From NCBI GenBank assembly GCA_947503625.1, contig CANNEK010000003.1, positions 248,001-312,000 on the forward strand: DNA of 64,000 nucleotides. The letters are read 5' to 3'. The stretch comes from an uncultured Kordiimonas sp. (GTDB taxonomy: Bacteria; Pseudomonadota; Alphaproteobacteria; Sphingomonadales; Kordiimonadaceae). The position numbers and the translations under genes are program-made. The notes under the pieces were generated by a model that ran no database searches, had not been told where the DNA came from, and saw only the letters and a list, made by a program, of their open reading frames with translations. Shown here piece after piece: positions 38,510-46,336 of this stretch. Every line of letters begins with the position of its first letter. Position 1 is the stretch's first letter.

Positions 38510-39214
38510 ATGCGTGTTCTGCTAATTGAAGACGACCCAACCATAAGCCGCAGTATCGAACTGATGCTGAATGCTGAAGGGTTCAATATCTATTGTACTG
38601 ATCTGGGCGAGGAAGGCCTGGACCTTGGCAAATTGTACGATTACGACATTATCCTGCTGGATCTCAACTTGCCCGATATGCACGGATACGATGTACTTAA
38701 GAAATTGAGAACCGCCAAGGTTAATACCCCGATTTTGATCCTGTCCGGACTGAACGAGATGGAAAACAAGGTCAAAGGCCTTGGTTTTGGTGCAGATGAT
38801 TATCTCACCAAACCATTCCACAAGGAAGAGTTGGTTGCACGCATCCATGCCATTGTACGCAGGTCAAAGGGGCATTCGCAATCAGTGATCAACACAGGAA
38901 AACTGGCTGTTAACCTGGACACAAAAACCGTTGAGGTCGAAGGCAAGCGCGTTCATCTGACAGGTAAAGAATACGCAATGCTGGAACTGCTCTCTCTCAG
39001 GAAAGGCAGTACGCTGACCAAAGAGATGTTCCTTAACCATCTTTATGGCGGCATTGATGAACCGGAATTAAAAATCATTGACGTGTTTATCTGCAAGCTT
39101 CGGAAAAAGCTCGCTTCGGCCTCAAGTGGACTGAATTACATCGAAACGGTGTGGGGCCGGGGTTATGTTCTCAGAAATCCGGTTGATGAAGAACAGGAGG
39201 CCGCTGCAAGCTAG
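38510..39214 (+). CDS. ctrA: CtrA, cell-cycle response regulator
   Basis: 234 residues. The receiver keeps the acidic pair (IEDDP), the acceptor Asp51 ([14 protein letters not shown]), Thr/Ser and Lys ([12 protein letters not shown]); the OmpR-type winged helix shows [29 protein letters not shown] (in part) and the CtrA-typical [12 protein letters not shown] and [12 protein letters not shown]. CtrA controls division, replication and flagellar genes in Alphaproteobacteria and is phosphorylated through CckA and ChpT. The C-terminus is EEQEAAAS, not a plain Ala-Ala end. It is divergent from fliI and convergent with the che operon, whose last gene lies beyond a shared terminator. Confidence 0.96.
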
Positions 39215-39283: not shown

Positions 39284-40123
39284 TTAGGTGAGCTGCATCA
39301 ACTCTTCTGCATTACCTGATGTTGAAACATACATGCCTCGTTGCCCCCTCACAGGGCGCAAGGTATCCGTTATTCCGAGCACGGTCTCAGCAGCGCCAAG
39401 AAACAGTGTTCCGTCTTTTGCCAGTGTTCCATGCATCCGCTCCAACACATCTTTTTTCGTCGGCTGATCAAAATAGATCAACACATTACGACAATAGATG
39501 ACATCAAAGCCCCCCAGTAGGCTGAAGCTGCTAAGCAAATTAAACGGCCGGTAGCTGACCATGTTTCGGATATCATCGTTGATGCGCCAAATGTCGCCTT
39601 CCTGTTTAAAATATTTGATCAACATCTGAATGGGAAGACCCCGCTGAACCTCGAACTGACTGTACGTGCCAGCCTTTGCCTTCTCCAAAACCTGAGTGCA
39701 GATATCGGTACCAACAATTTCTATGTTCCAGCCTTGCCATTTTGCCCAGTTCTCCTTCAGCAAAATCGCTAGCGAATATGGTTCCTGCCCTGTGGAAGCC
39801 GCCGCACACCAAATACGTAACTTCTTATTGGGGCGAGCCTTCTCCATCGCTGGCAGGACATGGTTTTTAAAGATGTCGAAAGGTGTGTTGTCCCGAAAGA
39901 AGAATGACTCGTTAGTTGTCATCGCTTCTGTAACATCCTTGATCAAACTGTCGTCTCGGCTGCTGCGCAGCTTCTGCACAAGCGCATCAAGGGTATCAAG
40001 GCCGCGTTTTCGGGCAAGCGGTGTCAGCCTGCTCTCGAGCAGATACACTTTATCCGACGTTAACATGAGGCCGGATTTATCCTTCAACAAACCTGCGAGG
40101 AATTCAAAGTCTTGATTATTCAC
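39284..40123 (-). CDS. cheR: Chemotaxis methyltransferase CheR
   Basis: 279 residues from a GTG start with a very strong ribosome site (AAGGAGG). N-terminal helical part (GLMLTSDKVYLLESRLTPLAR, in part), then the SAM-binding domain: TTNESFFFRD, RIWCAAASTGQEPYSLAI, FDVIYCRNVLIYFD. CheR methylates glutamates of chemoreceptors. Its first four bases overlap the cheB stop, so it is coupled to it; it is the last gene of the che operon. No receptor gene lies in the window. Confidence 0.95.
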   Translation of the reverse strand: MNNQDFEFLAGLLKDKSGLMLTSDKVYLLESRLTPLARKRGLDTLDALVQKLRSSRDDSLIKDVTEAMTTNESFFFRDNTPFDIFKNHVLPAMEKARPNKKLRIWCAAASTGQEPYSLAILLKENWAKWQGWNIEIVGTDICTQVLEKAKAGTYSQFEVQRGLPIQMLIKYFKQEGDIWRINDDIRNMVSYRPFNLLSSFSLLGGFDVIYCRNVLIYFDQPTKKDVLERMHGTLAKDGTLFLGAAETVLGITDTLRPVRGQRGMYVSTSGNAEELMQLT

Positions 40124-41385
40124 GCCATTCCTCCTTGCAACCGTCTTTCGGTCGCAGCGCCAATTTCAGTGATTGGCAAAATTTCAGTACAAAGGCCCGC
40201 GGTAGCGACAGCGCCAGGCATGCCCCAAACCACACTTGTTGCTTCGTCCTGCGCAAGCAGTGTTGCGCCTTCTTTAGTGATTTCGCGCGCACCCTTCAGA
40301 CCATCATGGCCCATTCCTGTAAGGATCACTGCGAGAATTCTGTCGCCGTATATTTTAACTGCACTACGGAACAAAGGATCAACGGCAGGACGGCAGAAGT
40401 TTTCCGGTGGATCATCGGTCAAGCGAATCACGACACGGCCTTCGCGAGAGGCAATCTCCATGTGCTTCCCTCCTGGCGCGATGTAAATCTCGCCAGGTTT
40501 GGGTTCCATACCATCCTTGCCTTCCTGAGCAGGCCACCCTGTCGCCTGTCGAAGGTGATCTGCCAAAATTGCAGTGAAAGTTGCCGGCATGTGCTGGGTA
40601 ATAAAAATCGGTACCGAAGGCGCCTTTTTAAAGGCCGCAAAAAATTTCATCAATGCCTGCGGGCCCCCCGTCGACGACCCGATCAGAAGAACTTTCGGCG
40701 AACGCATTGACCCTTTTCTGAGTGTATAGGCCTGTTCACCCGAAGGCGGCACCGCCATATCCGGCCTGTAAGCTGCTCGTCCTGCAACACTTGCCACCCG
40801 TGCCTGAGGGCGGCTTGCGGAGACAAAGCCCGATGCTGTTGAAGGTCGGTCAGGTTTTGCAAACATTGGCTGGGCAGAAATGGAACGCCCGGAATCGGTA
40901 ACATTCTCCGGCTGCGCTGTTCCCAGTTTCTTGCGACGGCGGGAAGCCCAGGCTTTTACTTTCTCAACCAGTTCACGTCTGAAATCGATGTTGGCATTCA
41001 CGGAGCGAGCCGTTTCCGGCTTTGGCACATAATCAACAGCGCCCATTTGCAACGCGCGCAAGCTTATCTCTGCGTTCTTGCGTGTCAGCGTTGACGCCAT
41101 CACTATCTGAAGGTCAGGCTTCATCTCTATCATTTTGGGCAAAGCCGTCATGCCGTCCATTTCTGGCATTTCTATATCAAGTACAACGGCTTCAATATCA
41201 TATTGATCGAGCTGACGAAGCGCTACAGAACCATTGTTGGCCGTTGTCACTACATCGATGTTCGGATCTTCAGACAAATAGCGACACAAAAATCCCCGGA
41301 TAATAGCGCTGTCATCAACAACCATTACCCGATAAGGGCCACCTTTACCTGTAACGGAACTAGGATTTGATACTACAGAATTCAC
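40120..41385 (-). CDS. cheB: Chemotaxis methylesterase/deamidase CheB
   Basis: 421 residues from GTG (AGGAA upstream). An N-terminal receiver (VMVVDDSAIIRG; acceptor Asp in AVVLDIEMPEMDGM) is joined by a long variable linker (~150-220) to the methylesterase domain with the triad Ser (IGSSTGGPQAL), His (ITQHMPATFTAIL) and Asp (TGMGHDGLKGA). CheB removes receptor methyl groups when phosphorylated by CheA. It is coupled to cheR by a 4-base overlap. Confidence 0.95.
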   Translation of the reverse strand: MNSVVSNPSSVTGKGGPYRVMVVDDSAIIRGFLCRYLSEDPNIDVVTTANNGSVALRQLDQYDIEAVVLDIEMPEMDGMTALPKMIEMKPDLQIVMASTLTRKNAEISLRALQMGAVDYVPKPETARSVNANIDFRRELVEKVKAWASRRRKKLGTAQPENVTDSGRSISAQPMFAKPDRPSTASGFVSASRPQARVASVAGRAAYRPDMAVPPSGEQAYTLRKGSMRSPKVLLIGSSTGGPQALMKFFAAFKKAPSVPIFITQHMPATFTAILADHLRQATGWPAQEGKDGMEPKPGEIYIAPGGKHMEIASREGRVVIRLTDDPPENFCRPAVDPLFRSAVKIYGDRILAVILTGMGHDGLKGAREITKEGATLLAQDEATSVVWGMPGAVATAGLCTEILPITEIGAATERRLQGGMA

Positions 41386-41399
41386 AAGTAATTCCTGAA

Positions 41400-41765
41400 C
41401 TAAATGAGACCAACCTGTGAAAACTTCGCTTCGATAATCTCTCTATCGAAAGGCTTCATGATATATTCGTTTGCACCGGCTTCGATAGCGGTGCGGATGT
41501 GGGACATATCGTTTTCAGTTGTGCAGAAAATGACAACCGGTTGTTCAATGCCTTCTTTGGCGCGAACAGCTTTGAGAAACTCCAGGCCATCCATTACCGG
41601 CATATTCCAGTCCAGCAGCACCACATCAGGCACATTCCTGTCGCAGGCATCGAGAGCATCCTGGCCATCCACAGCTTCTTCAATGTCGAAGTTGAGTTCT
41701 TCAAGAATTCGTCGTGCAACCTTTCTGATTACTTTCGAATCATCAACAACAAGGCATAGTTTCAT
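41400..41765 (-). CDS. cheY: CheY-type single-domain response regulator
   Basis: 121 residues: acidic pair VVDDSKVIRKVA, acceptor Asp in VVLLDWNMPVMDGLEFL, Thr/Ser in IFCTTEND and Lys in IMKPFD. All phosphorylation residues are present. It lies between cheW and cheB in the che operon and is the expected motor-switch signal, binding FliM. CheA also carries a receiver of its own, so phosphate sharing is possible. Confidence 0.93.
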   Translation of the reverse strand: MKLCLVVDDSKVIRKVARRILEELNFDIEEAVDGQDALDACDRNVPDVVLLDWNMPVMDGLEFLKAVRAKEGIEQPVVIFCTTENDMSHIRTAIEAGANEYIMKPFDREIIEAKFSQVGLI

Positions 41766-41820: not shown

Positions 41821-42306
41821 TTATGCAGCTTTGCTGTTACTTTCGAACGCCAGCAATCTGTCGACATCCAGAATGGGCAGCAGTTGGTCCTTGAGGCGGT
41901 ATATGCCAACACTGACTTCGCGCCATCGTGGGTCCAGGGTCACCGGATTTTTCTCAAACAACTGATCATCCAACGACAATACTTCGCCAACCTTGTCTAT
42001 CTGCAGACTGTATGGCTCTTCATTGTGTTCGACAACAACGGACATACTGGATTTACCCTCTTCAAGCGGAGGCAAATCAAGGCGGCGGCGCAAGTCAATT
42101 GCTGTTACAATACGTCCACGCAAGTTCAACACGCCGGCCACCCAATCAGGAGAACGAGGAATAACCGTCAGCTTTTGTGCATTCAACACATCATGTACCG
42201 CCAGAACCGGAATGCCGACCAACTGGCCTTCCAGCATGACTGTAACGAAATCCTGAGTGCCGGTGGCAACGAGGCTCAAATCATCCCTTACGACTAAATC
42301 GTTCAT
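41821..42306 (-). CDS. cheW: Chemotaxis adaptor CheW
   Basis: 161 residues, one CheW domain: FVTVMLEGQLVGIPVLAVHDVL (in part), VAGVLNLRGRIVTAIDLRRRL (in part), IYRLKDQLLPILDVDRLL (in part). It links receptors to CheA. GGAG lies 7 bases before the start, which overlaps the cheA stop (ATGA). Full length. Confidence 0.94.
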   Translation of the reverse strand: MNDLVVRDDLSLVATGTQDFVTVMLEGQLVGIPVLAVHDVLNAQKLTVIPRSPDWVAGVLNLRGRIVTAIDLRRRLDLPPLEEGKSSMSVVVEHNEEPYSLQIDKVGEVLSLDDQLFEKNPVTLDPRWREVSVGIYRLKDQLLPILDVDRLLAFESNSKAA

Positions 42307-45300
42307 GCCGCGTCTCCTTTAATTTTGAACTGTTGCGACAAACTGCGCAACAAGGTGTCTTTGTCAAACTTGGCGACATAATCATCGAACCCGGCTTCAA
42401 ACCCGCGGTTGATATCCTTTTCGCTTGAAAGCGCCGACAGTGCCACCAGCTTTGTTCCGGCCCATTCGTCGTTTGCCCGAACTGCTTTGGCGAATTCAAA
42501 GCCAGACATGTCTGGCATTTCAATATCGGAGATAATCAGGTCAAATGCCTCTCCAGTCTCCAGAAGGTCAAGTGCCTCTCCAGCGCTGCTGACGGCCTTC
42601 ACCCTGTAACCCGCAACCGAGAGGATGGGGCGTAACATGTTGCGGAAAAAATCGCTGTCATCAACAACGAGAATGTTTGCCGCACTGCGGGCCACCGACG
42701 ATTCTTCGCTCATATCTGCTGTCGCAAGCCAGTCAGGGAATGCAAGACCAAGGAAATAGGTGACATCGATAACTTCAGACGCCTTGCCATTAATGACAGC
42801 GGATCCGATGACGCCATCCTTGTCGGATACCAGTTTGATATCCAACTCGTCTTCGACGATGTCCAAAATCTCGTCAACGGCCAGACCCATGGTGAATTGT
42901 CTATCCGTAAACACCAACACTTGCTGGCTGCCACTTTCGCGCAAGGACATCGCATTATCTGCCAGAATCAGTGGCATCAAGGCACCACGATACTGAACCA
43001 TCAAACGACCATCTGACTTTTCAACATCGTCAATGCTGATTTCTTCAAGACGCGCAACCAGCGAAAGGGGAACAGCACGTGGGTGCTTCTGCCCTGCCCT
43101 GAACACCAGCATGCTTTCTTTGTTATTGGCGGCGGCACGACGGGTCTGCTCATGCTCATCCTCTTCTTCCACGGCATCGGAAACGCCTTGGCTCGCCATA
43201 TTGGCAATACCATTCGGGTCAAGGATCATGATGACACTACCATCGCCGAGGATCGTATTGCCTGAATAGATATCAAGATCTTTCAGGATTGGCGCAACGG
43301 GCTTGACCACAATTTCTTCGGTATCGAAAACCTGATCAACGACTATCCCGAACGTGAAAGCACCAACCTGGGAAACAACGATAAAGTCATCAGTTGCATC
43401 ACGGGCCTCCACTTCCTCCGAAGTTTCGAACCCAAGCACTTCGTTCAGATACACAAGTGGCAGCAAACGATTGCGGAGCCTCAGCACCGGAGTATCATTG
43501 ATCATTTCGATCTTGTGGTCGTTCTCACCGGCCTTTTCAGCATTTGTTGCCCGAACAAGCTCGAGAACACTGATTTGCGGTATCGCGTACCGTTCTTCCT
43601 GCGCCTTCACGATCAAACCTGCGACAATAGCCAGAGTTAGCGGAATTTTAATCGAGAAGCTGCTGCCTTTTCCAACGGTAGAGACCATATCAATGGTACC
43701 ACCGATTTTTTCGATGTTAGACCGAACCACGTCCATGCCAACGCCACGACCCGAAACACTGGTGACCTGTTCGGCGGTTGAGAAGCCAGGATGGAAGATG
43801 AATTTCTGGATTTGGGCTTCTGACATGCCAGCAAGCTCGCCTTCAGATGCCAATCCCTTCTCCAGAATTTTTTTACTGAGTTTTTCCGGGTTGATACCCC
43901 GACCATCATCATTGATTTCGATAATGATATGTCCACCTTCGTGGTAGGCGTTCAAAACGATGGTGCCCATCTCGGGCTTGCCCGCCGCTATACGCTCTGC
44001 CGGCGATTCGACACCATGATCGGCCGAATTTCGTACCATATGTGTAAGAGGGTCTTTGATCAGCTCAAGAACCTGGCGGTCGAGCTCTGTATCGGCACCA
44101 AGCATCTCAAGTTCGATTTTCTTATCGAGCTCAACTGTCAGGTCACGAACAATACGCGGTAGCTTCGCCCATGCATTCCCAATGGGCTGCATGCGCGTTT
44201 TCATAACATTTTCCTGCAGCTCGGTTGTACACTGGCTCAAACGCTGCAAGGGAACACCCAGCTCTGAGTTATCCATGTTGCGGGTAATCTGGAGCAGCTG
44301 ATTTCGTGTTAGAACCAGTTCCGAGACCATATTCATCAGGTCTTCCAGTAGGTCGACACTCACACGAATTGACTGAGTTGAGCGCCGTGTTTCCTTTGCT
44401 GCACCAGCCTGGGACTCCCCTGCCTGCGCCTGTCCGGTGCTCCCGGGCTTCGGTTGGGCCACTTCCTTAGAAGCGTTAATCACGGCTTCACGCACCAGTT
44501 CAAACGTCATCACAGCTTCATCCGCTGCATCGGCATGAACGTGACATTCGACCAAAACACTTTTCACAATTTCCAGTAAGTGATTGAACTGTGCTTCGCC
44601 AAACCCTGCAACACTTATAAGCTGCCGTCCCACTGCATCTGCAGCATCCAGATCATCTTTAAACAAAGCCAGCATAAGGCCCATGAAGCGACCTTTTCGC
44701 TGATCCTGATTCGTACCCGCGAAAAATTTTGCGATCTTTTCGTCGTTTTCAGCACGCTGACTTATCAGGTGTGCAGCAACTGCAACGGTATCTTCACCGC
44801 CAACACGCTCGAACAAGCTGCCGTCATTATTATCAGCGCTTGCGCCTGCAGGGGCAGCGGTATCTTCAGGTTCATCGCCGGGACCCGGTGCGTTGGCAAA
44901 CGCCGCCTCCAGTTCCTCAAGTGAAACCTCGCCCGGTTTAATAGACCGTCCAAGTCCAGGGTCGATTATTTCGCCATCAACGGTGTCAGGCTCGGGATCA
45001 GGCTCGGCCAAAGGAGCCTCGCCACCTTCCGCAATCGCGTCAAGCCGCCCAATCAGATCACTGTCGTCGCCCTCTGGCTCTTCCTCGGTTGCCTCAAGGC
45101 CCGCCAGAATTTCCTTAATCTGGTCAAGACTCTCCAGAATAACCGTTACCGCGCCCTCGGTAACCTGGAGTTCACCATCGCGGAATTTGCCAAGAACATT
45201 TTCTGACGCATGAGCGACCGATTCTAATCGCGGCAAACCGAGAAAACCACATGTCCCCTTAATAGTGTGAACAAGGCGAAAAATGTTATCCAACACTTCC

Positions 45301-45398
45301 TTGTTGTTGGGGTCCTGTTCTAACTTAACGAGTTCAACGTCTACGACATCAATGCTTTCACCTGTTTCCGTAAGAAACTCATTTAATAGATCGTCCAT
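42303..45398 (-). CDS. cheA: Hybrid CheA: Hpt, truncated-globin-like domain, kinase core, two CheW domains, receiver
   Basis: 1031 residues, far longer than the usual ~650-750. In order: Hpt with phospho-His44 (RLVHTIKGTCGF), acidic linker, a truncated-haemoglobin-like domain (~194-310) where P2 normally lies, dimerisation helices (~345-400), HATPase (N-box HMVRNSADHG ~453-462; DDGRGI; GRGVGMDVV), two CheW-like domains (~595-735 and ~760-890), and a C-terminal receiver (VVDDSDFF; Asp958 in IISDIEMPDM; Lys1010). It is a membrane-array histidine kinase that phosphorylates CheY and CheB. The start has CGGGAAG upstream. chpT precedes it on the same strand. Function of the globin-like part unknown. 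Confidence 0.95.
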   Translation of the reverse strand: MDDLLNEFLTETGESIDVVDVELVKLEQDPNNKEVLDNIFRLVHTIKGTCGFLGLPRLESVAHASENVLGKFRDGELQVTEGAVTVILESLDQIKEILAGLEATEEEPEGDDSDLIGRLDAIAEGGEAPLAEPDPEPDTVDGEIIDPGLGRSIKPGEVSLEELEAAFANAPGPGDEPEDTAAPAGASADNNDGSLFERVGGEDTVAVAAHLISQRAENDEKIAKFFAGTNQDQRKGRFMGLMLALFKDDLDAADAVGRQLISVAGFGEAQFNHLLEIVKSVLVECHVHADAADEAVMTFELVREAVINASKEVAQPKPGSTGQAQAGESQAGAAKETRRSTQSIRVSVDLLEDLMNMVSELVLTRNQLLQITRNMDNSELGVPLQRLSQCTTELQENVMKTRMQPIGNAWAKLPRIVRDLTVELDKKIELEMLGADTELDRQVLELIKDPLTHMVRNSADHGVESPAERIAAGKPEMGTIVLNAYHEGGHIIIEINDDGRGINPEKLSKKILEKGLASEGELAGMSEAQIQKFIFHPGFSTAEQVTSVSGRGVGMDVVRSNIEKIGGTIDMVSTVGKGSSFSIKIPLTLAIVAGLIVKAQEERYAIPQISVLELVRATNAEKAGENDHKIEMINDTPVLRLRNRLLPLVYLNEVLGFETSEEVEARDATDDFIVVSQVGAFTFGIVVDQVFDTEEIVVKPVAPILKDLDIYSGNTILGDGSVIMILDPNGIANMASQGVSDAVEEEDEHEQTRRAAANNKESMLVFRAGQKHPRAVPLSLVARLEEISIDDVEKSDGRLMVQYRGALMPLILADNAMSLRESGSQQVLVFTDRQFTMGLAVDEILDIVEDELDIKLVSDKDGVIGSAVINGKASEVIDVTYFLGLAFPDWLATADMSEESSVARSAANILVVDDSDFFRNMLRPILSVAGYRVKAVSSAGEALDLLETGEAFDLIISDIEMPDMSGFEFAKAVRANDEWAGTKLVALSALSSEKDINRGFEAGFDDYVAKFDKDTLLRSLSQQFKIKGDAA
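44469..44819 (-). other. Truncated-haemoglobin-like domain inside CheA (residues ~194-310)
   Basis: The segment SLFERVGGEDTVAV...NDEKIAKFFAGTN..RKGRF aligns without gaps over about 50 residues with group I truncated haemoglobins, whose pattern is S-[IL]-[YF]-x-x-[IV]-GG...D-x-x-[LI]-x-x-FF-x-GTN...KG. The B10 Tyr position reads Ser (LISQRA), and the position of the proximal F8 His reads Ile (GRQLISVAGFGEAQF). So the fold is likely kept and haem binding likely lost. The comparison is from remembered family sequences. Confidence 0.72.
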
Positions 45399-45572: not shown

Positions 45573-46214
45573 TCAGGCGTTTGACCGGAAGCTCGACGAA
45601 ATGACGATGGATTTATCATCCAGATTATCAATAAAAATGTTACCGCCAAGCTCACGCACCACCATACTGGCCAGATAGGCCGGGGCAGACCGGGGTTCCA
45701 GGTCTTGCTCTTTAACCGAGCCCTCAAGCGCGAGCTTGATGTCTTCCGGAAAAATAACCCGTTCGCCACTCGCAGAAATAACAATTTTTACTCGATCATC
45801 ATCCTGAGATTTGAAGGTAACTTCAAGAATACCGCCCCGAATGAGCGCTTCTGCCGTCACAAGGCATAAATTCAGCAATAGTTTGACGCCACCTTTGGAC
45901 AATTCCGAAACCGAAACATTCCAGGACAAATCCACCTTGCTACCTGCCAGAAATGCCCGTAGCGACTTTTCAGCCTCTCTTGTATCAAGGTGAGCAGAAA
46001 ATCCACCAGCCGCTCCAAAGGCCAGTCTGAAGAACTGAAGCTTGTTGCTTGTTTGAGCTGTTGATTTTTCAATCAGGTCAAAAACCGCTTCGCGCATGGT
46101 TTCATCCTGTTCGCCGGAAAGAAGCTCCAGGCCATTATTGATCGCACCAACCGGGCTTACCAAATCATGACAAAGCCTCGAACATAGAAGTGCTGCAAAA
46201 TCCAGTTTGGACAT
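45573..46214 (-). CDS. chpT: ChpT, histidine phosphotransferase
   Basis: 213 residues from the ATG at 46214 (AGGGGGA 3 bases upstream); the longer frame to 46280 is rejected. The phospho-His motif LLCSRLCHDLVSPVGAINNGLELL (in part) and a degenerate HATPase-like C-terminal half (APAYLASMVVRELGGNI) identify the ChpT/HPTransfase family. ChpT dimers pass phosphate from CckA to CtrA and CpdR. The gene lies 174 bases upstream of cheA on the same strand and 6.4 kb from ctrA. The gap to cheA holds no gene. Confidence 0.88.
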   Translation of the reverse strand: MSKLDFAALLCSRLCHDLVSPVGAINNGLELLSGEQDETMREAVFDLIEKSTAQTSNKLQFFRLAFGAAGGFSAHLDTREAEKSLRAFLAGSKVDLSWNVSVSELSKGGVKLLLNLCLVTAEALIRGGILEVTFKSQDDDRVKIVISASGERVIFPEDIKLALEGSVKEQDLEPRSAPAYLASMVVRELGGNIFIDNLDDKSIVISSSFRSNA

Positions 46215-46336
46215 AGTTCCCCCTGAAAAAGACGTGCAATTGTCCGTTTCTATTCTATTGCGCAGCCCACTGCCCACCAACCAAGCTAATAATTTGTCTA
46301 TTTTTGCGAGAATCTACTGTCTAGGCAACAGATTTT

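Follow-up and report, generated by a model that had tools for sequence, protein, structure and literature searches.

The chemotaxis kinase CheA encoded in a 64,000-nucleotide stretch of DNA from an uncultured Kordiimonas sp. (the whole stretch is called the window below) carries a globin-like domain in the linker between its P1 and P3 domains. This domain is homologous to group I truncated haemoglobins, is predicted to share their fold, is conserved among related CheA proteins and has lost the usual haem ligands in its own order. We hold with moderate confidence that a haem-binding input module entered the linker of an alphaproteobacterial CheA and became a haem-free regulatory module in the order to which the window belongs.

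The kinase and its globin-like domain

The cheA gene (42303-45398, minus strand) encodes 1031 amino acids. The protein begins with an Hpt domain (P1, residues 3-96, 45111-45392; PF01627, E 4e-16), followed by a linker, a globin-like domain that lacks the usual haem ligands (residues 193-312, ~120 residues, 44463-44822; identified by profile and fold matches), the P3 dimerisation domain (H-kinase_dim, residues 342-401, 44196-44375; PF02895) and the P4 ATPase domain (HATPase, residues 449-588, 43635-44054; PF02518). The C-terminal half consists of a first CheW domain, P5 (residues 594-733, 43200-43619; PF01584), a second CheW-like domain (about residues 761-890, 42729-43118), seen as a second PF01584 stretch with approximate borders set by hand, and a receiver domain (residues 909-1018, 42345-42674; PF00072), all on the minus strand. 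A preliminary description had located a truncated-haemoglobin-like domain at 44469-44819 between Hpt and the dimerisation helices; these coordinates are correct for this minus-strand gene, and the Pfam borders of Hpt and P3 flank the domain as described. Described F5-class CheA proteins of Alphaproteobacteria have two CheW domains and a receiver, according to the available part of an architecture survey (PMC10782961), and those of Caulobacter, Azospirillum and Rhodospirillum centenum share Hpt, P3, P4, two CheW domains and a receiver with the window CheA. This comparison of the described class with the layout found here (Hpt, P3, P4, two CheW domains, C-terminal receiver) suggests that the window CheA belongs to the F5 class. 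The survey's main text contains no word beginning with "globin" and mentions no globin for F5-class CheA, whereas the window CheA has one in its P1-P3 linker.

The gene lies in a che cluster that further comprises cheW (41821-42306; PF01584), a cheY-like single receiver domain (41400-41765; PF00072), cheB (40120-41385; PF01339 and PF00072) and cheR (39284-40123; PF01739), all on the minus strand. Domain searches place a histidine phosphotransferase (45573-46280, minus strand), which we take to be ChpT-like, at one end of the cluster and an OmpR-type response regulator (38510-39214, plus strand), presumably CtrA-like, at the other. At E<=1e-60 (4 of 32 candidates scored) and again at E<=1e-100 (19 of 32 scored), a query spanning P3-P5 has one match in the own genome. 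Relatives of the window CheA with named records come from Kordiimonas, Eilatimonas, Pseudokordiimonas and metagenome-assembled genomes.

Taken alone, the window sequence gives an incomplete picture. The isolated domain matches the Pfam family Bac_globin (PF01152) with E 0.0086 and 16.7 bits (cut-off 21) over 52 residues, the match is not listed when the whole 1031-residue CheA is scanned, and the cyanoglobin 2ksc is found with E 2e-4 over fragment residues 8-112. Homology from this sequence alone is suggestive only, because the PF01152 match is short, below cut-off and unlisted in the full-length scan. The profile of 38 CheA domains finds the truncated haemoglobins THB1 (E 8e-16) and HbN (E 3e-15) in the PDB, where the top 25 of 35 rows are all globins. 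Aligned with hhalign to ten free-standing globins, the CheA domains reach a probability of 99.3% over 123 columns, and PF01152 itself matches 22 of the 38 relatives' domains at E<=1 (best E 6e-9). In the own 4.07-Mb genome, the same profile has a single other match at E<=1e-3, a free-standing globin of 125 residues (E 2.2e-16; 10 of 12 candidates scored). Together with its relatives, the domain of residues 193-312 is thus confirmed as homologous to group I truncated haemoglobins beyond chance; a fortuitous resemblance over 50 residues is ruled out by the family profile, which extends across the full length. The second half of the window domain also matches P-II (PF00543; E 0.042), as do 2 of 38 relatives; this is treated as chance.

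The predicted structure agrees with the profiles. The AlphaFold model of the window domain (pLDDT 91.8) comprises seven helices and no strands, matches solved truncated haemoglobins along its length and displays the 2/2 globin fold. Other globin families appear lower in the VIA-align list, which is not counted against the kinship. The domain therefore resembles the group I truncated (2/2) haemoglobins 1dlw, 1dly, HbN (1idr) and THB1 (4xdi) in fold and sequence profile over its whole length, but differs from them in being fused inside CheA, in having lost Tyr B10 and His F8 and in its shorter EF loop. The truncated-haemoglobin-like domain of the preliminary description is consequently borne out by the 38-relative profile, hhalign and the AlphaFold match; in the profile check proposed there, the relatives' profile gives a significant globin match over the full length, and the window sequence alone stays below the Bac_globin cut-off.

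Haem ligands and conservation

In an alignment of 99 domains, the window domain has Ser B10, Arg E7, Phe E11 and Gly F8. Tyr B10 is present in none of 47 and His F8 in none of 49 CheAs of the own order, or in 0 of 55 and 0 of 57 once eight sequences are added; some His occurs within six columns of F8 in 5 of the 49, and residues 211-272 of the window sequence contain no His. The alignment thus agrees with the earlier reading of the distal Tyr as Ser. The proximal His had been read as Ile; it is indeed absent, but the alignment places Gly there, a disagreement that stems from the EF loop, which is shorter than in haem-type globins and leaves the F8 register uncertain. Judged from these alignments, the loss of both usual haem-contact residues from the domain of the own order is supported. 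In contrast to the window domain, the free-standing globin L001 of the own genome, which is homologous to it (E 1e-6 with the window domain as query), retains Tyr B10, Gln E7, Gln E11 and His F8.

The lost residues are accompanied by new ones. His B7, which is His210 of the window CheA (codon at 44769-44771, minus strand), is found in 54 of 55 CheAs of the own order. The 23 aligned rows of other CheA globins, some of them from the same gene, all have Glu, Asp or Ala there instead. All 17 aligned sequences of family f8 carry a further His at B10. In family f1, to which the window belongs, 22 positions reach a conservation of 90% or more while their residue differs from the commonest one in haem-type globins; six of these (D203, V207, H210, R215, K235 and D293) hold at 85% or more across the order, while the other 16 are not kept across it, and an acidic loop is newly conserved in the family. 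Because family f1 has gained conserved positions, six of them kept order-wide, the domain appears to be rewritten, partly lineage by lineage, beyond mere decay.

Sequence comparison of 22 CheAs (the window and 21 of 24 CheA loci, with two fragments and L167 left out) reveals an almost gapless globin domain with a mean pairwise identity of 0.60 and 17 invariant columns out of 120. The stretches directly beside it reach only 0.19 and 0.31, while the first part of the linker (106-150), the motif region and the receiver reach 0.69, 0.74 and 0.68, respectively. The globin changes faster than the Hpt, P3, P4 and CheW domains, for which identities of 0.95, 0.90, 0.87, 0.83 and 0.72 are found. Against four relatives, dN is 0.115-0.216 for the globin and 0.103-0.194 for the receiver, and lower in the Hpt, P3, P4 and CheW domains, with dS saturated or nearly so.

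The linker without a globin and the spread of the domain

The P2 domain of CheA, which binds CheY, occupies the same position between P1 and P3 and has an alpha/beta fold. The window domain, by contrast, lacks a P2 match, and its model, with seven helices and no strands, is all-helical and departs from an alpha/beta fold, so the structure prediction points to a globin rather than to P2. Pfam models of P2 or CheY-binding domains are absent among the 6 families found at E<=10 for the window CheA and the 2 found for the domain, as well as among the 38 relatives (25 of 28 families covered). A P2 identity of the domain is therefore ruled out by Pfam and the all-helical model.

Whether the globin stands in place of P2, as had been claimed, can be judged from CheAs that lack it. 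Among 29 CheA loci other than the own (L115-L143, the best P3-P5 matches), one has a globin (L141, genome G463) and 28 do not, and 36 further loci chosen by length or kinship comprise 9 with a globin match and 27 without. The resulting 55 globin-less linkers, representing 54 genes since L138 and L214 are the same gene, are of low complexity and span 62-220 residues, with 251 in L191 and 288 in L199. In these 55 linkers, Pfam detects no P2 or CheY-binding domain at E<=0.1; its eight hits are single ones and belong to unrelated families. The claim of a replaced P2 is thus not supported as worded: since globin-less relatives have just a linker of low complexity in which P2 is not matched, the globin looks inserted into a P2-less linker rather than substituted for P2. 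The evidence is good but not final, as HMMER fails to detect many P2 domains; in models of CheAs lacking P2, the linker is unstructured (both from the available part of PMC10782961).

The linker also contains a motif, GEVSLEELEAAFANAPGPGDE (also written GEVSLEELEAAF), at residues 156-176 (44871-44933, minus strand), and similar motifs are found in globin-less CheAs too. With a loose pattern, a GEVSLEELE-like motif is found in 48 of 75 linkers with a globin and in 23 of 55 without, counting L108 as globin-less. As a guess, it could be a docking peptide for response regulators in CheAs without P2.

The CheA core is present at E<=1e-100 in 65 of 98 genomes sampled from the order, and 57 of the 65 have the globin domain. 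It is found in all 29 genomes of family f1, the own included, although contig ends cut it in G007 and G024; G056 is an additional genome bearing the domain, on a cut contig. As 8 of the 65 genomes (G030, G031, G037, G043, G045, G067, G070 and G071) have the CheA without a recognised domain, some lineages do without it. In L191 (G030), the P1-P3 linker of 251 residues holds a helical-looking insert that escapes the globin profile and may be another decayed globin. A quick CheA-core tree of 108 rows, with family f1 thinned to 6, gives 13 changes of presence and 5 changes of haem state among bearers, without telling gains from losses or settling their number. In this tree L108, with its degenerate globin match, and L191, with its unrecognised insert, are scored globin-less by threshold, and the haem state is set to lost by default for loci outside the 99-domain alignment, nine of which were later checked. 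A domain tree of 83 rows likewise does not resolve the number of origins.

Haem-type globins occur in the CheAs of other families. In a class sample of 385 genomes, 61 are matched by the A1 profile at E<=1e-3; most of their longer open frames were fetched and short ones taken as free-standing globins, which yielded globin-bearing CheAs from 19 genomes besides the own, plus a degenerate case in G417. In 8 of the 19 genomes, from seven families, the P1-P3 globin has both Tyr B10 and His F8: G155 (f66), G187 (f98), G191 (f102), G219 (f130), G291 (f88), G303 (f109), G322 (f130) and G400 (f120). G322 has a second CheA (L107), whose globin lacks both haem residues, and in G177 the P1-P3 globin reads Phe B10 and His F8. 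Contig ends truncate the frames of G291, G322 (haem type) and G177; in G394 and G471, the frame stops early. PF01152 scores above cut-off in the three haem-type CheAs scanned (E 3e-17, 1e-35 with two copies, and 3e-16). From their residues, the CheAs of other families look able to bind haem. Across 398 genomes sampled from the phylum, a query of globin plus P3/P4, which misses diverged globins, aligns from its globin end only in Alphaproteobacteria among the matches listed (5 genomes, own included).

Globins are also seen elsewhere in the chemotaxis core. The CheAs L084 (G155) and L092 (G177) each contain two globins, the second of which lies within the P5 CheW-like domain, the array-facing part. 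In L084, a PF01584 stretch begins at profile position 62 right after the inner globin, while that of L092 is placed in P5 by position and reading; Tyr B10 and His F8 are present in both globins of L084 and in L092 in the inner one only. Three CheW proteins, L095 (G472), L105 (G395) and L106 (G306), carry a C-terminal globin-like domain (Pfam E 2e-10 for L095; L105 and L106 assigned as CheW by reading), in all of which the haem residues are absent; no globin is present in the CheAs retrieved from G472 and G395. Separately, L089 (G381) and L085 (G289) are truncated-globin/PAS proteins, L089 with an MCP signalling domain as well, and a truncated-globin/PAS/MCP receptor is known from Corallococcus according to the available part of PMC6194562. 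A gammaproteobacterial frame, L169, encodes two truncated globins in tandem.

Possible functions and meaning

Globins that have lost haem or joined signalling proteins are known in other settings. RsbR, with its N-terminal non-haem globin (2bnl), presumably represents another globin lineage, output domain and system. The RsbR-type non-haem globin carries a STAS output domain, and STAS is not among the Pfam families of the window CheA. Like the window CheA, globin-coupled sensors (for example HemAT) and the Corallococcus chemoreceptor with PAS and Bac_globin domains (available part of PMC6194562) place a globin in a chemotaxis signalling protein. Their globin is in the receptor, whereas that of the window belongs to the kinase, has a predicted 2/2 fold and is devoid of the haem ligands; it is internal and without His F8, unlike the N-terminal globin with a proximal His that defines these sensors. 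The available text of the CheA survey describes CheA as without a sensor domain of its own (PMC10782961), a 2006 globin census names flavohaemoglobins and globin-coupled sensors as chimeric globins (PMC1457004, as available), and globins appear as receptor domains in the accessible part of a 2026 review of aerotaxis (PMC13401364). No paper on a globin in CheA was found in the open-access literature searched. As Pfam scores the haem-type layouts, public domain databases may already show them.

According to the history that we favour, a group I (2/2) truncated haemoglobin would have entered the flexible P1-P3 linker of a CheA with two CheW domains and a receiver. The ancestral domain may have sensed a gas or redox state through haem and passed this input straight to the kinase, perhaps by restraining or releasing the tethered P1. 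An ancestral role as haem sensor is the leading idea because CheAs of other families carry the insertion with intact haem residues. In the own order, haem would then have been lost and the domain would have become a cofactor-free regulatory module, with a new site possibly marked order-wide by His B7 and Lys E8, to which the own family would have added the acidic EF loop and a changed helix H. Such a module, probably by binding a small ligand or a partner protein, would tune the P1-P4 encounter or phosphotransfer. The preliminary description had suggested a response-regulator dock or a sensor of another ligand; either may be right.

Three other readings have to be weighed against this history. 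As the main rival, the haem-free globin could act as a P2 substitute, that is, a tethered dock for CheY and/or CheB that speeds phosphotransfer, which we consider rather unlikely. It sits at the place of P2, variable stretches directly flank it on both sides, no Pfam P2 is found and the acidic loop is newly conserved in the own family, yet 23 of 55 globin-less linkers keep the GEVSLEELE-like motif without a folded dock, so docking may lie in that motif, and haem-type relatives at the same place favour sensing. As several sister lineages without the domain retain the motif, response-regulator docking seems less likely as its main job; the motif in these sisters and the haem-type relatives weigh towards an input function, short of proof.

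The domain could also serve as a folded spacer or be a relic in decay, with neither ligand nor partner. While it is missing in 8 of 65 genomes of the order and very degenerate in L108, L191 and L212, its almost gapless alignment in 22 CheAs with 17 of 120 columns invariant, a dN close to that of the receiver, its lineage-specific conserved positions and its confident predicted fold make this improbable. Slightly more doubtful still is that haem or another tetrapyrrole is bound through a different ligand, for example His B7. The near-constant His B7 in the order (54 of 55) and the further His at B10 in the 17 family f8 sequences would fit such binding, and unusual ligation and swapped sites exist among globins (available part of PMC4476040). 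However, both usual ligands are gone, E7 is Arg and E11 Phe in the window, the EF loop is changed, and His B7, which lies one turn ahead of B10, would need to extend to the iron.

The globins in the CheAs of some distant relatives, which still look able to bind haem, suggest a gas sensor that was built into the kinase and later re-used. On a broader and more tentative view, which we would give somewhat less than even weight, the alphaproteobacterial chemotaxis core may itself be a gas sensor, with haem globins in the CheA linker and in some P5 domains and globin-like domains on CheW, so that O2, NO or redox state would directly affect the kinase array; the kinase globin of Kordiimonadales and relatives would have become haem-free and acquired a new ligand or partner. 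If this is true, the CheA-internal globin would give the chemotaxis core a direct internal input, and CheA globins that are haem-competent by sequence and haem-free ones would be natural intermediates for the loss of a cofactor by a sensor domain. Receptor-independent gas sensing by the chemotaxis kinase would thereby become a testable question.
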